Source: a virus
IMG/VR virus record: IMGVR_UViG_3300034072_001466
Location: 1-28,064 of that record
Reading direction: 5' to 3' (one strand)
DNA length: 28,064 nt
Shown piece by piece: positions 1-19,536 of this stretch. Both the position numbers and the translations under genes were made by a program. Numbering within the stretch: the stretch's first letter is position 1; every line of letters starts with the position of its first letter. The notes under the pieces are model-generated. The model ran no database searches and was not told the DNA's origin. It worked only from the letters and a program-made list of their open reading frames with translations.

Positions 1-2
1 AG

Positions 3-794
3 GAGTTCCACCAAGATAAGAATCTTCCAACTAACATTCCAGAAAACTCTCCAGCCGCTGGCGCGGAAGAGGGAGTTTTGAAAAAGGTTGATCGAAAAAA
101 GATAGAGCACGCTTTCACGCTGTGGTTCGCGACGTGGAAAAAGGGCGATATCGAATATGCTCGCAACGCGTGGTTCGCTCTTTCCCCGGAAGATCGGACC
201 GAGTGCGTGGAGCGGACGCCCGCCTATCTACGTTGGGCCAAGCCTGCCGACCTGATGGCCGCAGCGGTCTACCTCAAAAACCGTCATTGGCGCGACCTGC
301 CGGAACATGTTCTTGCTGAGCCGATCAACGCCCATGGCATTGCCAAGGTTTGCGGCAAGCTCTGGATGGGAACGCGCTTTGAGGCGTTGTCGAAAGAGCC
401 GACCGGCCTGTTGTATGTGACCAGCTTTGACGAAACCCGTATCGCCAAGGGCATGATTTCCCGCGAACAGCTTCTGTTCGAAAAGCGCCGTGACAATGGC
501 TGGCCACTCGTCAACACCATGCGCGACCTTGCCCGTCGCCGCGAGCCTTTCAACACTTCGCTCTCGCTTCTCCCTTTGGTGCAGGACTTCCGGCAGGTGC
601 ACCGCGACAGCGATCTGTTCGCGGCTTGGAAGCACCTGCATGAGCGCAACGGCTGGCCCTTTATCGAGCATCCGCCCGAATGGGTCTACTTCCCACCGGT
701 CGATGACGGGGCCGACGATCTTGAAGCGGCAGTTGATGCCGCGCTTTCCAAATTTCTTTCCACCATCAGCGAGGGACGCACCAATGATGCATAA
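3..794 (+). CDS. C-terminal part of a probable phage replication / helix-turn-helix protein (5' end outside window)
   Basis: The frame is open from the first bases of the window with no stop before a possible TTG start at 78, so the gene very probably begins upstream and only its C-terminal part is seen. A TTG start at 78, preceded by GAGGGA, would give 238 residues and cannot be excluded. The stretch around the KKIEHAF, WFATWKKGD and NAWFALSPEDR motifs resembles the C-terminal region of rhizobial phage replication-type proteins that carry an N-terminal winged helix; that comparison is from memory. The C-terminus is acidic. Its last 11 bases overlap the start of the NusG-like gene, so the two are translationally coupled. 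It lies at the early-to-late boundary of the phage. Function is inferred, not shown. Confidence 0.6.
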   Translation, partial: EFHQDKNLPTNIPENSPAAGAEEGVLKKVDRKKIEHAFTLWFATWKKGDIEYARNAWFALSPEDRTECVERTPAYLRWAKPADLMAAAVYLKNRHWRDLPEHVLAEPINAHGIAKVCGKLWMGTRFEALSKEPTGLLYVTSFDETRIAKGMISREQLLFEKRRDNGWPLVNTMRDLARRREPFNTSLSLLPLVQDFRQVHRDSDLFAAWKHLHERNGWPFIEHPPEWVYFPPVDDGADDLEAAVDAALSKFLSTISEGRTNDA

Positions 795-1470
795 CGTGAA
801 GATTTATGCCGCCAGCAAGCCGGTCAACCCGGAGCTTTATGACCTGTCGCGTTTCGCGTCTCTGTTCGACCAGATGCAGAACACGAAGCGACTCAACGTC
901 ACCATGCTTTCCATGGCGGCGGAGAATCAGCCGGGAAAACACGAATGGTTCGTGGTGGAGACGAAGCATAAGGCGGAAAAAACTGTTGAAGACGCCCTTC
1001 GGAAAGCTGGCGTGAAAGTTTTTCTCCCGCTCGAAACCATCGGTGAAACGGTCGTTCGCGGTCGCATTATCCCTGCTGTCTCGCGTCCTCTTCTGCCGGG
1101 ATATGTACTGGTCAACATCGTCTATTCTCCCGCCGCAGTCTGCGGTATTGCCCGGCTGGAAGGTGTCGCGGGCTTCGTTGGCGGGATGGTTCACCCTCAT
1201 CGTGTATCAGACGAGGAAATGAATCGTTTCAAGGCTTTCGGCGATGACGAGACTGCGCCTGACGTGAAGCACTGCGAACAGTTCAAGCGCGGCGATAAGG
1301 TTCGTTTCGTGCTTGGCCCCTTCGCCAGTTTCGGCGGCACCATCCTGAAATTGCGCAAGGATCGGACCGTTGACGGCGAGCGTGTTGCTACCGGCGCTGT
1401 GGTGGCGGTGGACGTGTTCGGCAAGGTTTCGACCATCGAAGCCCCTCTTGCATTGCTCGAACAGTTGTGA
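784..1470 (+). CDS. Phage NusG-family transcription (anti)termination protein
   Basis: A 228-residue NusG paralogue. Residues about 54-150 form an NGN domain (begins HEWFVVETKHKAEK; LPGYVLVNI core strand near 104-112), the part of NusG/RfaH that binds the RNA polymerase clamp. Residues about 168-186 form a KOW motif (RGDKVRFVLGPFASFGG). An extension of roughly 50 residues before the NGN domain is not typical of housekeeping NusG. The start at 784 is chosen for GAGGGA seven bases upstream; a second ATG at 787 is possible. The longer frame open from 490 is shadow sequence of the upstream gene. It sits directly before a multi-hairpin region, a terminator and the late operon, which suggests a specialised antiterminator like RfaH or LoaP rather than general NusG. 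Family assignment is firm; the late-switch role is inference. Confidence 0.9.
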   Translation: MMHNVKIYAASKPVNPELYDLSRFASLFDQMQNTKRLNVTMLSMAAENQPGKHEWFVVETKHKAEKTVEDALRKAGVKVFLPLETIGETVVRGRIIPAVSRPLLPGYVLVNIVYSPAAVCGIARLEGVAGFVGGMVHPHRVSDEEMNRFKAFGDDETAPDVKHCEQFKRGDKVRFVLGPFASFGGTILKLRKDRTVDGERVATGAVVAVDVFGKVSTIEAPLALLEQL

Positions 1471-1479
1471 CTATGCATA

Positions 1480-1614
1480 GCGCAGGATGATCTGCTGATC
1501 CTGTGCAGGCGCGCCGGTTTCGACCGGCGAGTGGGGTTCCAAAAACCTCCACGCTGGTAAGCCGGGGCGGACCCTGCCTTGACCCTCTCGCCAGAGAGAC
1601 CGATTCAAGGCCAG
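1480..1614 (+). ncRNA. Multi-hairpin structured RNA leader upstream of the late genes
   Basis: Between the NusG-like gene and the first structural gene the + strand folds by eye into consecutive hairpins. Hairpin 1 pairs 1480-1488 with 1498-1506 (one G-U). Hairpin 2 pairs 1512-1518 with 1523-1529, a perfect stem closed by a TTCG tetraloop. Hairpin 3 pairs 1531-1538 with 1544-1552 (one bulged base). Hairpin 4 pairs 1563-1567 with 1572-1576. Hairpin 5 pairs 1577-1582 with 1605-1610, with an inner CTCTC/GAGAG stem. CTGG at 1554-1557 can pair with CCAG at 1611-1614 and close hairpins 4 and 5 into a multiloop. No convincing gene is found in it on either strand. It could be the RNA target of the adjacent NusG-like protein, a terminator-linked leader, or an independent small RNA. 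Folding was done by hand with no energy or covariation test. Confidence 0.55.
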
Positions 1615-1647
1615 TGCGACAGCTATATCATCGGCGGACTTGAGCGA

Positions 1648-1674
1648 AGGCGACCCTAACCCGGTCGCCTTTTT
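1648..1674 (+). terminator. Intrinsic terminator after the structured leader
   Basis: An 8-bp perfect stem AGGCGACC (1648-1655) / GGTCGCCT (1663-1670) with a 7-base loop is followed directly by T residues to 1674. This is a textbook rho-independent terminator. It stands 39 bases ahead of the first late structural gene, so late transcription from upstream must read through it or start downstream. Confidence 0.8.
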
Positions 1675-1712
1675 CGTTTGCATAGGGTGTAGGCAACTTC
1701 CGGAAAAATCTG

Positions 1713-2285
1713 ATGACGCCTGTTCTGTCCATGAAATGGGCCGACCGCAATCTTGCGGAATACGGCAACCGGATAGTGGCCCTGAAAACCAAGTTTCCGA
1801 CCGTGCTGCCTCGCATCGTCAACGGTGTTGGCAACAGGTCGAAAACTATTGTTGTTCGCACACTGACGAAACAGACCGGATTGCCGCGTGCCACCATCGT
1901 TAAGGCCATCGGCAATCCGGCAACCGCAAGGCCGGGCCGGTTGGTCTACGACATGACCACGCGGGGCGGCAACATTCGCCTCAAATATCTGCGCCCGAAG
2001 GAAACCGAAGCCGGTGTCGTGGCGCGACCCTTTGGAAAGCCGACGCTCTATCCCGGCGCGTTCCTGCGGGGTGGACAGTTCCCCGACCGTAAGCCGGTGT
2101 CGCAGTTCAACGGGCATGCCTACTACCGGCTCAACCGCTCCGGCACGAAGATCACCTTCGCCCGCTCGGGCGTCTTCATCCCGAAGGAAATGACCAGCGG
2201 CGCGACAGCGGAAGCATTCCAGCGCATAGCAGCGCCCTTGCTGAAAGAGCGGGTCGAAGCCGCCCTTGCCAAGCTGGTCCCTTGA
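1713..2285 (+). CDS. Minor tail protein Z-like (tail completion) protein
   Basis: A 190-residue basic protein whose size and features fit the lambda gpZ / minor tail protein Z family (lambda Z is 192 residues): a short N-terminal helix, KTIVVRTLTKQTGLP near residues 43-57, an arginine-rich middle, then KITFARSGVFIP and a C-terminal helix. In lambda, gpZ acts in tail completion and in making tails competent for DNA injection. Here the gene lies upstream of the terminase small subunit rather than between the head-joining and tail genes, an unusual place. The ATG at 1713 has only a weak GGAA-type ribosome site. It is the first gene after the structured leader and terminator. The assignment rests on remembered family features, so an alternative is another neck or virion-morphogenesis protein. 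Confidence 0.6.
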   Translation: MTPVLSMKWADRNLAEYGNRIVALKTKFPTVLPRIVNGVGNRSKTIVVRTLTKQTGLPRATIVKAIGNPATARPGRLVYDMTTRGGNIRLKYLRPKETEAGVVARPFGKPTLYPGAFLRGGQFPDRKPVSQFNGHAYYRLNRSGTKITFARSGVFIPKEMTSGATAEAFQRIAAPLLKERVEAALAKLVP

Positions 2286-2447
2286 CGGGCCACCCCGACC
2301 CCCGACCTTGACCCGCCCCCATACCCCCCCTCGGTCGGGTCCTCCCCCAAAAGAGGCCAAGTAGCGGGTGTGGGCGACTGCGGGATTTCGCTCTGTGAAG
2401 AAAATTATAGGGGGGTTCCACCGCCCTTTCAGTGGAATCGGAATCAG
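2286..2447 (+). other. C-rich intergenic region before terminase (possible cos / G-quadruplex region)
   Basis: This 162-base gap contains no gene. From about 2290 to 2350 the + strand holds repeated C runs of 4 to 7, so the - strand has at least four G runs able to form a G-quadruplex. A run of six G follows at 2410-2415, next to an AT-rich AAAATTATA. In lambda the cos packaging site lies just before the nu1 gene, and this gap holds the same position next to lambda-type terminase genes. A cos role is inference from position only; no cos consensus was recognised. Confidence 0.3.
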
Positions 2448-3182
2448 ATGGCAAAGAGCTATCCTGACGAGTTGCGTGAACAGGTCGTGGCCTTCATGGA
2501 CGAGGGCCACACGGTTCGGGAGGCAGCGGCAAAGTTCAACGTCAGCCCGAGTTTCGCGGCAAAATCGCACAAGAAACATGCGAAAGCTGGCGAAAGCCTC
2601 CCGCTGCTTACCGAAACGGCACCTGCCGAACCGGATAAGCCCTCGCTCGATATCGAAATCACCGCGTCCGAACTGGCGGAACTGCTGAAGGTTTCGAAGC
2701 GGGCGGTATCGGATTTCGTAGAGCGTGGAATCGTGGTGAAGACAGAACGGAATCGCTTCGATCTTCGCCAGTCCATCCAGCTTTATTGCGAGCATTTGCG
2801 TGGTGTCGCCGCCGGTCGCGGCGGTGACGGCGCGGATGTTCTGACCGCCGAACGCGCCCGACTGGCGCGTGAGCAGGCCGACCAGACGGCCATGAAAAAC
2901 GCGGCCATGCGCGGCGAACTGGTTTCGAAAACGGACGTGCGGAACGAATGGGTTTCGATAGGCCGCCGCATCCGCAATGCGGTTCTATCGGTGCCTTCGC
3001 GCTGTCGGCAGATGCTGCCGCACCTCACGACTTACGATGTTGACCTGATCGGCCAAGAAATCCGGTCGGCGCTTTCCGAACTTGGTGACGAGGACGATGA
3101 CAACGGCGCTGGCGACATTGCGGCAAGCGGTATGGGACAGCCTGTTGCCGCCGCCGAAACTCCGGTTGTCGGAATGGATTGA
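2448..3182 (+). CDS. Terminase small subunit, Nu1-like, with extra N-terminal helix-turn-helix
   Basis: A 244-residue protein with two DNA-binding parts. Residues about 6-40 (YPDELREQVVAFMDEG, then TVREAAAKFNVSPSFAAK) look like a transposase-type helix-turn-helix. Residues about 71-110 (ITASELAELLKVSKRAVSDFVERG) match the winged helix-turn-helix at the start of lambda gpNu1, and the rest (TAERARLAREQADQTAMKNAAMRG, arginine-rich helix, C-terminal acidic tail) matches the usual Nu1-family body. The small subunit recognises the phage packaging site and loads the large subunit. The ATG at 2448 was chosen because residues translated upstream of it are not family-like. The gene overlaps the terminase large subunit by 86 bases. 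The additional N-terminal domain is uncommon in Nu1 proteins. Confidence 0.8.
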   Translation: MAKSYPDELREQVVAFMDEGHTVREAAAKFNVSPSFAAKSHKKHAKAGESLPLLTETAPAEPDKPSLDIEITASELAELLKVSKRAVSDFVERGIVVKTERNRFDLRQSIQLYCEHLRGVAAGRGGDGADVLTAERARLAREQADQTAMKNAAMRGELVSKTDVRNEWVSIGRRIRNAVLSVPSRCRQMLPHLTTYDVDLIGQEIRSALSELGDEDDDNGAGDIAASGMGQPVAAAETPVVGMD

Positions 3183-4878
3183 ACAAACCGTCCATCTGCC
3201 GGAAGGCGTTTCATCGCTGACCGGCAAGGTTCGCCTCTGGCCTCCGCAGCGCGAAATTGCCGATGCCATTGGTGATAGTGCAATCGAGCGTGTCACGCTG
3301 GTCAAGCCGGTTCGCGTTGGCTTCACGACGCTGCTGACGAGCGCCATGGCCAGCTTCTGTTCAAACGACCCGTCGCCGATCCTTTCGCTTCTGCCGACAG
3401 AAGCCGACTGCCGCGACTATATGGTTTCGGACGTGGAACCGATTTTCGATGCCTCGCCAGCGCTTCGCGGTCTTTTGACCGGCGATACCAGCGAAGGCGG
3501 ACGCAACACCCTTCTTGCCCGTCGCTTTCCCGGCGGCTTCCTGAAAGTCATTGCCGCCAAGGCACCGCGTAACCTGCGCCGTCACAATGTCCGCATCCTC
3601 TTCATTGACGAAGCGGATGGCATGGACGCGACGAAGGAAGGGTCGCCGATCCTGCTGGCGGAGCGCCGCACGCTGTCTTTTGCGGACCGCAAGATTGTCA
3701 TGGGTTCAACGCCTGTTTACGAGGCGACCAGCCATGTGTTGCGGGCCTACGAGCAATCGGACAAGCGGATTTTCGAAGTGCCGTGCTTCAAGTGCGGGTC
3801 GTTCCACGAAATCGGATGGGAGCATATCCGCTGGCCGGAAGGCCAGCCCGAAAAAGCCGTCTATGTTTGCCCGTCATGTGACCGCGAGATTGAAGAGCGG
3901 CACAAGCCGGGAATGGTTGGTGATGGCGCTTGGCGCGCTCTGCGGCCCGAAATCAAGGACCATGCCGGATTCCGCATGAACGCCCTGATTTCTCTTCTGC
4001 CTAACGCCTCCTGGGGGCGTTTGGCGAAAGAGTTTGTCGCCGTCAAAAACGACCCTTCGACGCTGCAAACCTTCGTCAACACCATCCTTGCCCAAGGATG
4101 GAAAGAGGACGGCGACGAACTGGACGATATCGAGCTTGCAGGCCGCGCCGAAGATTTCGGGCTGGAAAATATCCCGGTCCAAGTGCTGATTATCACGGTC
4201 GGCGTGGACGTGCAGGATGACCGTCTGGAAGCAACCTTCGTCGGTTGGGACAAAGAGGGCATCCCGTATGTTCTCGGCCATACCGTTGTTTGGGGTCGCT
4301 ATGACGACCATACCACATGGGCCGAACTGGACGTTGCCCTGACGACGCAATGGGACCATCCGCTTGGCGGCAGGATCAAGGTCGATGCTGTTTGCGTCGA
4401 TAGCTCGGACGGCGAGACCATGGAAACGGTCTATCGCTTCGCGTTCCCGCGCTTCAATCGCCGTGTTCTGGCGATCAAGGGCGCTGCGGGCAACCGGCCA
4501 TGGATTGAGCGCTCAAAAACGAACGTGAAGGGCGGACGCCTTTTCATCGTCGGCGTGGACGGCATCAAGAGCCATATTTTCGGCAGGCTGACCCGGCCCA
4601 AGTCCATCCGGTTTTCGAAAGACCTGCCGGATGTCTGGTACGAGCAGCTTGCGGGCGAAAAGATGGAAGTCCGCTATTTGCGCGGCCAGCCAAGCCGCCA
4701 GTTCGTCCCGATACCGGGCCGACGCCACGAGGCGCTTGACTGCACCGTTTATGCCTTCGCCGCCCGCCAGATGGTCAATGCCAATTGGGCGCACCGCGAG
4801 GGCGAGCTTTCGACACCGCCGGAACCGGCGGTCGCCACCTACACACAAGAAATCGCGAAACCGGAGTGGCTTGCATAA
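3097..4878 (+). CDS. Terminase large subunit, lambda GpA family
   Basis: A 593-residue packaging motor and nuclease. It shows a GpA-type Walker A variant (VKPVRVGFTT, residues about 69-78), Walker B with catalytic acids (ILFIDEADGMD, about 167-177), a two-CxxC zinc-ribbon-like segment (PCFKCG, then YVCPSCDREI), and a C-terminal RNase-H-like nuclease region starting near ITVGVDVQDDRLE. It cuts concatemeric DNA and drives it into the prohead. In-frame TTG (3082) and GTG (3085) codons lie upstream; ATG 3097 is preferred, with GAGG just before it. Its TAA overlaps the ATG of the gpW gene (TAATG). Length is close to the family norm (lambda gpA 641). Confidence 0.95.
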   Translation: MTTALATLRQAVWDSLLPPPKLRLSEWIEQTVHLPEGVSSLTGKVRLWPPQREIADAIGDSAIERVTLVKPVRVGFTTLLTSAMASFCSNDPSPILSLLPTEADCRDYMVSDVEPIFDASPALRGLLTGDTSEGGRNTLLARRFPGGFLKVIAAKAPRNLRRHNVRILFIDEADGMDATKEGSPILLAERRTLSFADRKIVMGSTPVYEATSHVLRAYEQSDKRIFEVPCFKCGSFHEIGWEHIRWPEGQPEKAVYVCPSCDREIEERHKPGMVGDGAWRALRPEIKDHAGFRMNALISLLPNASWGRLAKEFVAVKNDPSTLQTFVNTILAQGWKEDGDELDDIELAGRAEDFGLENIPVQVLIITVGVDVQDDRLEATFVGWDKEGIPYVLGHTVVWGRYDDHTTWAELDVALTTQWDHPLGGRIKVDAVCVDSSDGETMETVYRFAFPRFNRRVLAIKGAAGNRPWIERSKTNVKGGRLFIVGVDGIKSHIFGRLTRPKSIRFSKDLPDVWYEQLAGEKMEVRYLRGQPSRQFVPIPGRRHEALDCTVYAFAARQMVNANWAHREGELSTPPEPAVATYTQEIAKPEWLA

Positions 4879-5072
4879 TGGCGACTACAGACGATCAAAT
4901 TGCTGCGCTTGAAGATGCAATCGCAATGGGCGCGCGAAAGGTGATATTCCACTCTGGCGGCACGCGCCGCGAGGTGGAATATCACTCTCTCAAAGACATG
5001 AGGGAGGCACTCGCCGCCCTGAAATCCACCCGGTCGGGCGGCTCCCGTACCATCTACGCGGCGCTCGACTGA
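4878..5072 (+). CDS. Head-tail joining protein gpW
   Basis: A 64-residue protein with the gpW family pattern: an N-terminal helix (QIAALEDAIAMGARKV), a short beta hairpin with GGTRREVEYHS, then a second helix (LKDMREALAALKS). Lambda gpW is 68 residues and forms the ring under the portal that prepares the filled head for tail attachment. The start ATG overlaps the terminase stop (TAATG) and its own TGA overlaps the portal ATG (TGATG), so the three genes are translationally coupled. Position between terminase and portal is exactly as in lambda. Confidence 0.9.
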   Translation: MATTDDQIAALEDAIAMGARKVIFHSGGTRREVEYHSLKDMREALAALKSTRSGGSRTIYAALD

Positions 5073-6616
5073 TGGGCCTCGCGACCATTCTTGACCGGAC
5101 CATTGGTTATTTCTCGCCCGAAGCTGGTCTTCGGCGGGTAAAGCACCGCGCCGCGCTGGCCGTCATGTCACGCGCATATGCTGGTGCAGAAACCAGCCGC
5201 CTGAAATCCGGCAGGCGCGCACCATCAACATCGGCGGACGCAGAGATTGCGCGCGCCGGTCGGGCGCTTCGGGACCGCATGCGTGATCTGGCCCGAAACA
5301 ATCCTTATGCTGCCAAGGCCATCCATGAACTTGTCACCCACTCTATCGGTGACGGCATCATTCCCCGTTCTAAGAATAAAAAGCTCAACAAGCTTTTTGC
5401 GGAGTGGAGCAAGGTTTGCGATGCGGACGGCGATCTTGATTTCAACGGCTGTATCAACCTCGCTGGCCGCGAAATGTTTGAGAGCGGTAACGGTCTGATC
5501 CGTCGCCGCCGCCGCAGGCTGGAAGATGGCCTGCCGGTCCCGCTGCAAATACAGGTGCTGGAATCGGACCTGATCGACACCACCAAGGAAGGTGTACTTT
5601 CCGATGGTGGCAAGATCATCCAAGGCATCGAATTTGACGCCATCGGTAGGAAGCGCGCCTATTGGATGTTCGGTTCGCATCCCGGCAACAGCTTCTTTGA
5701 CCCGAAGTCCACGATTGTTTCGAAGCCGGTTCCGGCGTCCGATATTGCCCATGCTTTCGAAAAGCAGCGGACGCAGGTGATGGGCGCACCGTGGGGCGCG
5801 CCAGCAATGGTCGATACCTACGATCTGGCGTCTTATGAACAATCGGAATTGACGCGCAAGCGGCTGGAAGCCTGTATTGTCGGCGTGATGACTGGCGGCG
5901 ACGAAGCCGACCAGCTTGGCATGCCGATGGCGGATAGCCAGCCGACGAAGCCCGGCATCTATGACGTGAACGGCAGGCGTGTCGAAAAATTCGAGCCGGG
6001 CATGTTCTATAATGCTGTTGGCGGGCGGGGCATAGAGTTCTCGCAACCGGCAGTGACGGACAGCTACGATCCGTACAAGAACTCGATGCTGCACACTATT
6101 GCCGCAGGTTGGCGCGTTCCTCATGCGATCCTGTCCGGTCGGCTCGACAAGGTGAACTATTCGTCCAGCAAGGTTGGGCTTGAAGGCTTCCGCCGGACGA
6201 TCTCCGCCGTTCAATGGCTCATCATCATTCCGATGCTGTTGCAGCCTATTTGGGACTGGTTCTGCGAAGCGGCTTACTTCGCTGGCATCATCAAGACGCC
6301 CAAGGTTCCCGTGGAATGGTCGCCGCCGCGCTTCTATTCCGCCGATCCGCTCAAAGACGTGAACGCCCGCATCAAGGAAGTTCGCTCGGGCTTCCGCTCG
6401 CTGTCCAGCGTTATCGCCGAGATGGGTGAAAACCCGGATGACGTGCTGGACGAAATCGCGTCCGACGCGGCCAAGATCGACAAGCGCAAGCTTGTTCTCG
6501 ACAGCGACCCCCGGCGGATGTCTCAGGCCGGGCAGGTGCAGCAGCGGGACGAAACAGACGACCCGCCCGACGACAAGTCGGAAGACGACAAGGAACCCGA
6601 CGATGACGAAACTTGA
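5072..6616 (+). CDS. Portal protein, lambda gpB family
   Basis: A 514-residue portal protein. Family traits include the N-terminal RLKSGRRAPSTSADAE, then ARNNPYAAKAIHELVTHSIGDGI, IQVLESDLID, the SYEQSELTRKRLEA helix and WRVPHAILSGRLDKVNYSS, all typical of lambda-type portals. The C-terminus is a strongly acidic Asp/Glu tail. The dodecameric portal forms the DNA entry and exit channel of the head. It overlaps the preceding gpW stop by one base and the following protease gene by 14 bases. Lambda gpB is 533 residues, so length is normal. Confidence 0.95.
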   Translation: MGLATILDRTIGYFSPEAGLRRVKHRAALAVMSRAYAGAETSRLKSGRRAPSTSADAEIARAGRALRDRMRDLARNNPYAAKAIHELVTHSIGDGIIPRSKNKKLNKLFAEWSKVCDADGDLDFNGCINLAGREMFESGNGLIRRRRRRLEDGLPVPLQIQVLESDLIDTTKEGVLSDGGKIIQGIEFDAIGRKRAYWMFGSHPGNSFFDPKSTIVSKPVPASDIAHAFEKQRTQVMGAPWGAPAMVDTYDLASYEQSELTRKRLEACIVGVMTGGDEADQLGMPMADSQPTKPGIYDVNGRRVEKFEPGMFYNAVGGRGIEFSQPAVTDSYDPYKNSMLHTIAAGWRVPHAILSGRLDKVNYSSSKVGLEGFRRTISAVQWLIIIPMLLQPIWDWFCEAAYFAGIIKTPKVPVEWSPPRFYSADPLKDVNARIKEVRSGFRSLSSVIAEMGENPDDVLDEIASDAAKIDKRKLVLDSDPRRMSQAGQVQQRDETDDPPDDKSEDDKEPDDDET

Positions 6617-7351: not shown

Positions 7352-9013
7352 ATGAAAAAGGCTGCATATGTTTTCGCGACCGTCGCCGCAATCGTCTGCT
7401 TCGGTCTGGCCTTCACCATTCTTTCCGCCGACCCTTCCCACGCGGCCTCGCTGATCGGTCACGATGCATTCGTGCAGACGCGCGGCATGCTGGATCATGT
7501 CTATCAGGCCACCCCGGCACTGCTGGCCCTGCGGGCGACCGCCGCCGACCTGACGACGCGCGCCGAAAACAAGCGCAAGGAACTGGTGGAAGGTCTTTCC
7601 GATGAAGCTGCCCGCGCCATCGAAAAAGAGCATTCGGACATTCTTGCGGAACTGGATGGCGTCCGCGCCGGGATTGCAACGCTCGAAACTGCGGAGCGCG
7701 GCGGTCCGGCTCCCACGCCAGTCAATACCAGCCCGCAGGCGGTTGCGCAGAACGCGGAGCGGGCCGAACGCGAGCGCGTGACGACTATCGATGATCTGGC
7801 GGCGCGTGCGGGTTTCCCTGACTTCGCGCGTGACCATATCCGTTCCGGCACTTCTCTGGAAAGCTTCCGGGGCCTGCTTCTGGATCACTTGGTGACCAAT
7901 GAGCGCTCCACCCCGACCGACAGTCGCGTTCGCGTCCATGTTGGCAACGACGAAGCCGATACCCTCCGTTCGGCCCGTGTCGAAGCGCTTGCTTATGGTC
8001 TCGGCGCGCCGGTCCCGCAGGCCGGTCCGTCCGCCGCCGCTCGGCAGTATATGGGCCAAGGTCTGGTCGATATCGCTGCCGACTGCGTGAATTTCCACGG
8101 TCGCCGCATGCTGAATGCCCGCGATATCGACAACATCTTCAGCCGTGCCGCGCATTCGACTTCGGATTTCCCGGTGATTTTTGAAGGCGCTGTCAATCGC
8201 ACGCTGGAACAGCGCTACGCGCTGGCGCAGCCGACTTTCAAGCGTTTCGCCCGCAAGAAGAATTTCCGCGACTTCCGCCCGGATACGATCGTCAAGACCG
8301 GCGATTTCCCGATGCTGGAAAAGATTCTGGAAAACGGCAAGATCAAGTTCGGTTCGTTCGGCGAAGGCAAGGAAGCCGTGCAGGCTTTCAGCTACGCCAT
8401 CGCCCTGAATATCAGCCGCCAGATGCTCATCAATGACGATCTTGGCGCCATCGCCGAACTGCTGACGAGCTACGGCGCTTCGGTAGCCCTGTTCGAAGAA
8501 GTCACCTTCTACGGCGGTGCGTACAACGGCAAGCTTGCGGACGGCAAAACCGTCTTCCATGCTGACCATAAGAACCTTGCTGCTGCTGGTTCTGCGATTA
8601 CTGTCGATAGCGTCGGCGAAGGCCGCAAGTCGATGGGTCGGCAAACCTCCTTGGATGGCAAGCCGTTGCTCGCGAACCCGGCGCGTATCATGCTGGTCGG
8701 CCCGAACCAGTTGACCGATGCGGAAAAGCTGCTGGCTTCCATCACGCCCGCCACGGTTTCCACGGTCAATATTTTCTCCGGCAAGTTCGAACTGGTGGAA
8801 ACGTCGCAGATCGCGGACAATTCCTGGGACCTCTTCGCCGATCCTTCGACCGGCTCCAATTACCGTTGGGGTTACCTCGAAGGTTACGAGGCTCCGCGCG
8901 TTCGCATGGACGAACCCTTCGGCTCGCAGGGTTTCAGCATGTCGGTGGAACACGACTTCGGTTGCGGCGCGACCGATTTCCGCTTCGGCTATCACAACCC
9001 CGGCCAAGCGTAA
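7352..9013 (+). CDS. Major capsid protein with signal-peptide-like N-terminus
   Basis: A 553-residue coat protein. The C-terminal two thirds, from about residue 220 (RQYMGQGLVDIAADC, later NISRQMLINDDLGA, FHADHKNLA, VGPNQLTDAEKLL, and near the end DEPFGSQG and TDFRFGYHNPG), matches the HK97-fold coat proteins found with this protease (Mu gpT-like group). Residues about 40-110 are helical and charged, like a scaffold or delta region. Unusually, residues 1-33 look like a Sec signal peptide: MKK, a hydrophobic core at about 5-25, then PSHA before AS. The ATG at 7352 has AAAGGAA about ten bases upstream, so this N-terminus appears translated. A later start without it would need an unassisted internal codon. 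The upstream leader (7306-7328) can form a GGGCGAC/GTC..GCCC hairpin. Confidence 0.85.
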   Translation: MKKAAYVFATVAAIVCFGLAFTILSADPSHAASLIGHDAFVQTRGMLDHVYQATPALLALRATAADLTTRAENKRKELVEGLSDEAARAIEKEHSDILAELDGVRAGIATLETAERGGPAPTPVNTSPQAVAQNAERAERERVTTIDDLAARAGFPDFARDHIRSGTSLESFRGLLLDHLVTNERSTPTDSRVRVHVGNDEADTLRSARVEALAYGLGAPVPQAGPSAAARQYMGQGLVDIAADCVNFHGRRMLNARDIDNIFSRAAHSTSDFPVIFEGAVNRTLEQRYALAQPTFKRFARKKNFRDFRPDTIVKTGDFPMLEKILENGKIKFGSFGEGKEAVQAFSYAIALNISRQMLINDDLGAIAELLTSYGASVALFEEVTFYGGAYNGKLADGKTVFHADHKNLAAAGSAITVDSVGEGRKSMGRQTSLDGKPLLANPARIMLVGPNQLTDAEKLLASITPATVSTVNIFSGKFELVETSQIADNSWDLFADPSTGSNYRWGYLEGYEAPRVRMDEPFGSQGFSMSVEHDFGCGATDFRFGYHNPGQA

Positions 9014-9033: not shown

Positions 9034-9061
9034 GGGGGAGCCGCCCGGCTCTCCCTTTCTT
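9034..9061 (+). terminator. Terminator-like hairpin after the capsid gene
   Basis: A 9-bp stem (9034-9042 with 9047-9055, one G-U pair, loop GCCC) is followed by TTTCTTC. The U tract is imperfect, so it may be a partial terminator that lowers expression downstream of the capsid gene, or an mRNA-stabilising hairpin. Confidence 0.55.
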
Positions 9062-19510: not shown

Positions 19511-19536
19511 GGCCCGCGTTCTGCGGGCCATTTTTT
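19511..19536 (+). terminator. Intrinsic terminator after the tube gene
   Basis: Perfect 7-bp stem GGCCCGC (19511-19517) / GCGGGCC (19523-19529), loop GTTCT, then A and six T. It is the strongest terminator inside the late operon and would give high sheath and tube but low downstream expression. Confidence 0.85.

Follow-up and report, generated by a model that had tools for sequence, protein, structure and literature searches.

The window analysed here is the whole 28,064-base viral DNA of IMG/VR record IMGVR_UViG_3300034072_001466 (positions 1 to 28,064). It carries a replication-initiation-type gene (PHROG 270), a NusG paralogue (P0001), a neck/tail-completion gene, terS, terL and a portal gene, in this order. 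A structured RNA and a terminator lie between nusG and the first late gene (Table 1). Where the records permit a comparison, the order is conserved in other phages: an HTH/replication gene precedes nusG and the RNA, which are followed by HNH, hypothetical or terminase genes. Temperate phages of rhizobia and related bacteria encode their own version of NusG, almost always with a folded RNA behind it and usually with a terminator before the virion genes.

Table 1 Features of the NusG-RNA locus and of the late operon in the window
Feature	Position	Strand	Evidence
NusG paralogue P0001, 228 aa, proposed processive antiterminator	784..1470	+	Pfam PF02357, PHROG 6386, AF2, Foldseek
Type I NusG-associated structured RNA, whole element	1481..1626 (about)	+	fold z, conservation, covariation
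Local hairpin GCGCAGGAU/AUCCUGUGC, 9-bp, competitor of P1	1482..1504	+	minimum-energy fold
P1 5' strand: GG (1485-1486), conserved AUGA internal loop, UCUGCU (1491-1496)	1485..1496	+	RNAalifold, anchored pairing test
Two hairpins inside P1: 1512-1529 (UUCG loop) and 1531-1552	1512..1552	+	fold and comparison
P1 3' strand: GGCGGA (1566-1571), CC (1572-1573)	1566..1573	+	RNAalifold, anchored pairing test
P2 stem GCCUUGA (1576-1582)/UCAAGGC (1605-1611), P3 hairpin (1585-1598), conserved CGAYUCA	1576..1611	+	covariation, pairing probability
Near-invariant tail CAGUGC-GACA-GCUAU with 2-bp GNNA hairpin	1612..1626	+	comparison of relatives
Intrinsic terminator between RNA and first late ORF	1646..1676	+	stem-loop 1646-1672 plus T tract
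First late gene (neck/tail completion), opens late operon	1713..2285	+	PHROG 27
Intergenic terminator within late operon, after ORF ending at 9013	9034..9059	+	conserved in L165, L171
Second intergenic terminator within late operon	19511..19536	+	conserved in L165, L166, L167, L171

P0001 consists of an NGN domain followed by a KOW domain and meets the criterion for the NusG/Spt5 family. It matches the Pfam NusG family (PF02357; 1.8e-20, 73.7 bits against a cut-off of 22.2) and the PHROG 6386 'transcription antiterminator' profile (7.3e-37; 5.8e-52 to 9.2e-30 for its relatives). The AlphaFold2 (AF2) model (mean pLDDT 82.9) predicts strands and helices as in NusG, with an N-terminal extension containing a helix (21-43), the NGN domain and a β-barrel KOW C-terminal domain. 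The top PDB matches of this model in Foldseek are NusG proteins, and RfaH, including RfaH-bound structures, is also found among the matches. By the cut-offs of the curated models, the paralogue belongs to neither of two specialised families: the NCBIfam LoaP model scores it at 41.9 bits, far under the cut-off of 125, and the NCBIfam/TIGR RfaH model at 44.4 bits, far under 144.5.

Structure of the type I RNA

The region 1468-1680 has a folding energy of -92.4 kcal/mol (z = -4.0), and none of 200 shuffled sequences is equally stable. From 5' to 3', the structure obtained by comparison consists of a long-range helix (P1) around two hairpins, P2 with P3, a 2-bp GNNA hairpin and the terminator. The hairpins enclosed by P1 vary among phages and are missing from short forms. 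P2 has a pairing probability of about 0.9-1.0 in the thermodynamic ensemble of the window. The 14-pair core formed by P2 and P3 contains 115 cells with two-sided changes, compared with 31.6 in shuffled controls and no more than 20 when the partners are slid. An earlier first alignment gave a concordant result.

The P1 helix emerges from RNAalifold when a more diverse set is used. Its pattern is a conserved GG-AYGA, followed by 5-6 variable bases that pair with the bases directly 5' of the CC preceding P2. An unanchored search for this helix covered too long a stretch to be discriminating and was replaced by a register-anchored test, in which, for the observed and control sets alike, the best anchors among a few candidates were used. 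All five pairs are formed in 31/46 distinct loci, as opposed to 5.9% of mismatched combinations. In the ensemble of the window itself, however, the probability of P1 is near zero and the local hairpin at 1482-1504 is favoured, which is weaker or missing in other relatives. It is possible that P1 requires the protein, or that the RNA has two states; the data do not decide between the two.

Overall, compensatory changes maintain the pairing across about 90 sequences, and a real RNA with conserved structure is present behind nusG. Two additional pairings were considered and rejected. A pseudoknot between the 5' loop and the CAGU 3' of P2 is attractive in the clade of the window and fails in many relatives, and a CACUGG/CCAGUG pairing is present in some relatives only.

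The original prediction described an NGN+KOW protein followed by an RNA, a terminator and the late operon. This holds (Pfam, PHROG, fold z, terminator and late genes), and the extent is larger than was noted. The region was said to begin at 784, which spans nusG itself; the RNA covers only the interval given in Table 1. The 'five tandem hairpins' at 1480-1614 need correction, as relatives share the long-range P1, though the fold of the window prefers a local hairpin. The perfect intrinsic terminator placed at 1648-1674 is confirmed with slightly different ends, and is common in relatives rather than universal.

No known RNA family in Rfam matches the window RNA at the gathering score. A resemblance to the B12 box of cobalamin riboswitches was rejected: a search of Rfam at a threshold as loose as E <= 10 returned no cobalamin family. 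An E. coli-type boxA (<= 1 mismatch) is not found in 1471-1680; the boxA of alphaproteobacteria may differ.

The structural data bear on two alternatives. In the first, the NusG protein reads an ops-like element in the non-template DNA, as RfaH does, and the RNA folds only aid pausing. The protein is indeed a NusG paralogue with RfaH-bound structures among its fold matches. However, no ops-like match (<= 2 mismatches) exists within 1471-1680, P1 spans about 90 nt, which exceeds the transcription bubble, and the RfaH models score far under their cut-off. We regard this reading as very unlikely. In the second, the element is a packaging (cos/pac) site or a similar DNA feature and the hairpins are incidental. 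Cos or pac sites are often located near terS, and the element is near terS as well. This explanation is contradicted by the compensatory changes and by the position of the element: a neck gene intervenes in the window, and in several phages annotated genes, including HNH, separate the RNA from terS or from the end of the record. It also leaves the coupling to the type of NusG, described below, unexplained, and there is very little to recommend it.

The RNA is strictly linked to the NusG paralogue

The same RNA is located directly 3' of the nusG stop codon in 24/24 close relatives (viral contigs, NusG identity 68-99%). A recognisable homologue occupies the same place in six phages with as little as 27-36% NusG identity: phi3LM21, PPF1, phi2LM21, vB_MseS-P1, Rivra and Nsp-JY10. 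As a blind test of the linkage, viral and bacterial contigs were searched for the RNA core with nothing but a DNA pattern. Among 34 matches, 31 are preceded on the same strand by a NusG ORF at a distance of 92-161 bases and the remaining three end too near to judge, so that NusG is present in 31/31 evaluable loci.

We used a covariance model of the type I RNA (R1; 60 positions, 14 pairs) to extend the search. Exactly one strong match is found in 32/32 phage records, one of which contains a second, weak match of 13 bits. R1 matches occur in 31 of 298 Rhizobiaceae genomes, while 385 genomes drawn from the class give a single weak match outside the centre genome. NusG is encoded directly upstream of all 31 genome matches tested at >= 37.7 bits. 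Four weak matches (<= 30.5 bits) lack a neighbouring NusG, and we attribute them to chance. These RNA-first searches reach NusG identities down to about 22-30%. In the opposite direction, two replicons found by NusG protein search alone carry R1 at 54 and 66 bits immediately downstream, with no match in two controls. The type I RNA is therefore strictly linked to the NusG paralogue and is present in a single copy per phage.

The two replicons found by protein search are plasmids of 46 and 50 kb (A. salinitolerans pAtCFBP5507b, L175, and S. medicae pMl3, L176). Their phage gene order with NusG and the RNA indicates that they are probably phage-plasmids. The NusG and RNA of the Nostoc phage Nsp-JY10 group with those of Rhizobium prophages, which casts doubt on its stated cyanobacterial host.

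Other RNA types follow the NusG phylogeny

For the converse test, a profile of the NusG paralogues (A2), which distinguishes the phage-type proteins from the shorter housekeeping NusG, was run on the same 298 Rhizobiaceae genomes. Counted from the list, 35 places score >= 139 bits, and R1 is present in 31 of them. We inspected the other four, together with twelve lower-scoring paralogues, for different RNAs. Eight of these loci contain a type II RNA with its own covarying P1 and a hairpin, in one copy per genome and directly 3' of nusG. As the type II model was built from those very loci, only copy number and place are informative. Scans of the order and the class with R2 gave no matches, in a sample that included none of the genomes already known to carry the RNA, and are uninformative. 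Other loci without R1 carry variants IIb and III, which were assigned by eye only (L149-L161 span types II, IIb and III). NusG relatives lacking R1 thus mostly have a different RNA in the same place, with the GGAYGA-plus-P1 motif in common. Terminase genes come next after three examined type II loci and one type IIb locus.

The sole inspected paralogue without an evident downstream RNA is L148 (G262:C4). The large ORF downstream of it was tested and matched no Pfam family, and the locus may therefore be a decayed prophage. In L156 (G136), a type III locus, NusG and RNA are followed by an ORF with a GGDEF domain, not by a recognised phage late gene.

In a tree of 88 NusG proteins, the distribution of RNA types needs 9 changes, compared with a mean of 25.3 after shuffling, although near-copies inflate such tests. 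The type II proteins form one fully supported group that includes the NusG of L038. The RNA of this locus is a hybrid, combining a type II 5' half with a type I 3' core. RNA type tracks NusG phylogeny, which supports matched pairs, with the near-copies helping the test.

It is conceivable that the RNA alone acts on RNA polymerase, as in the put system, and that the NusG paralogue is accessory or active elsewhere. The fold is large and appears autonomous, and no dedicated protein takes part in antitermination by put RNAs (PMC9378689). Against this stand the strict linkage to NusG and the RNA type following the NusG tree. The HK022 put element, which is likewise a nascent phage RNA structure tied to antitermination, is also smaller (about 70 nt, two stems) than the NusG-linked RNA, and the window RNA has no match in Rfam. 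We consider a put-like mechanism unlikely.

Terminators and the late operon

A terminator hairpin with a T tract is found 3' of the RNA core in 70/88 loci, but only in 6/400 control windows. In about a fifth of the loci no terminator is recognised. The distance from the terminator to the first late ORF is mostly no more than some tens of bases; the ORF starts used for these distances are automatic and approximate, and some overlap the terminator. This leaves too little room for a promoter, so the late genes need read-through. No promoter-like site is found on the + strand at 1-6000, and synonymous positions at the 3' end of nusG are not unusually conserved, giving no sign of a promoter there.

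These observations also concern the possibility that the RNA is a 3' element regulating nusG, by autoregulation, mRNA stability or as a processed small RNA, with a terminator that merely closes the early operon. The location of the RNA directly behind the nusG stop codon in all loci favours such a role. It would not remove the need for read-through into the late genes, and neither a promoter-like site in 1-6000 nor extra synonymous-site conservation marks a separate late promoter. We judge this explanation unlikely.

Two strong terminators are located inside the late operon of the window. The ORF preceding the first is probably the capsid gene, although it was not identified by search. The second follows the ORF next after the tail sheath gene. 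Both are conserved in close relatives only, and no internal late-operon terminators were found in more distant phages.

A putative NusG-RNA antitermination module

Our preferred interpretation is that the NusG paralogue and the RNA form a matched processive-antitermination module that switches on the late genes, which we consider likely. In this model, the early operon ends with the gene for a specialised phage NusG. While NusG is scarce, most transcripts would end at the terminator. A polymerase that has passed nusG would next synthesise the RNA immediately behind it, and the folded RNA would capture the phage NusG or load it onto that same polymerase. In type I, the putative recognition parts are the GGAYGA internal loop on P1, the P2/P3 core and the CAGUGC-GNNA-GCUAU tail. 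The NusG-loaded polymerase would become resistant to termination, cross the adjacent terminator and transcribe the late operon, passing later terminators as well.

What is established is the protein family, the single-copy, NusG-linked RNA with its conserved structure, the presence of the terminator and the absence of space for a promoter ahead of the first late ORF. RNA-protein binding, modification of RNA polymerase, antitermination and the role in timing are inferred, and there are no direct binding or transcription data. We favour the module because RNA-first searches always yield an upstream NusG and the protein-first phage-plasmids yield the RNA; because the RNA is single-copy, covaries and tracks the NusG tree; because the terminator is enriched, with the first late ORF close behind and a shared gene order; and because of the internal late-operon terminators in the clade of the window and the precedent of LoaP (PMC12691694). 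Several observations count against it. The terminator is missing in some loci, P1 is disfavoured in the window fold and distant phages lack internal late terminators. It also remains possible that an RNA directly downstream of nusG regulates nusG itself.

The matched late-gene switch of the original prediction is accordingly supported by linkage, covariation and position, with its function still inferred. The sequence-based checks it suggested favour it: the RNA is recovered from related prophages with a covariance model, compensatory stem changes are well above shuffled and slid controls, and the RNA co-occurs with the NusG gene in every evaluable case and in the two phage-plasmids found by protein alone. 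One refuting outcome would have been phages that keep NusG and lose the hairpins; those without R1 mostly have another RNA type there. Another was late transcription starting downstream of 1674, for which there is mostly no promoter room between the terminator and the first late ORF, as judged from sequence alone. The remark that the combination is not known as a described system agrees with Rfam and the open-access literature searched.

A bolder reading, towards which we remain more sceptical than not, is that the late genes of Rhizobiaceae phages are switched on by an entire class of RNA-guided NusG paralogues, which would be a third route next to those of Q-type antiterminators and promoter activators. 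The RNAs would have diversified around the GGAYGA/P1 motif, and some may flip between the local hairpin and P1 upon NusG capture.

Comparison with known systems

LoaP, a NusG paralogue, acts on a terminator in the leader by way of a hairpin in the nascent RNA, and deletion of the leader hairpin abolishes LoaP-dependent read-through (PMC12691694). The LoaP-dfn system of Bacillus velezensis and the phage system both combine a NusG paralogue with a cognate leader RNA that adjoins a terminator and precedes a long operon. Read-through of an intrinsic terminator is demonstrated for LoaP, but only inferred for the phage system. The dfn RNA is one small UNCG-type hairpin, whereas the phage RNAs are about 100-180 nt long and of several types. 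The UUCG loop of the window is present in some close relatives, unconserved and missing elsewhere, which does not meet the criterion for a UNCG-type dfn hairpin. LoaP serves antibiotic operons and the phage NusG would serve late genes. Unlike in LoaP-dfn, the phage NusG is encoded upstream of the RNA on the same transcript.

Lambda Q, Q21 and GafZ also use antitermination to switch on a late operon or a GTA cluster. Loading of Q and GafZ takes place at promoter DNA, and they are unrelated in sequence (PMC11150451). The phage system instead combines a NusG-like protein with a linked RNA element. A 'transcription antiterminator' ORF is present in all phiLM21-like prophages studied (PMC12429752), apparently of the same gene class and located where the early region ends, ahead of an HNH gene. 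That study reports the ORF only; the word hairpin is absent and no RNA element is described. We found no phage NusG-RNA system in the literature searched, which was limited to open-access papers. Judged by the literature and Rfam searches, the annotation of the ORF as an antiterminator and antitermination by NusG paralogues are already known, while the RNA class, in a phage setting, is new.

Late-gene activation appears to be little studied in alphaproteobacterial temperate phages. The NusG-RNA pair is recognisable by sequence across very different phages, which makes late-gene switching directly testable. It extends the specialised NusG proteins by a phage branch and provides, beside LoaP-dfn, a second natural NusG-RNA pairing for the study of how RNA loads NusG onto polymerase.

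RfaH is likewise a NusG paralogue devoted to few operons. It recognises the non-template DNA strand at ops, and its models score P0001 under their cut-off. The C-terminal domain of autoinhibited RfaH is an α-hairpin, whereas AF2 predicts a β-barrel for P0001; the prediction is not proof.

One position of the KOW domain in alignment A2 is F or Y in most phage paralogues and Q or M in some. By an alignment made by eye, we take it to be the equivalent of F165 of E. coli NusG, the S10/Rho contact.
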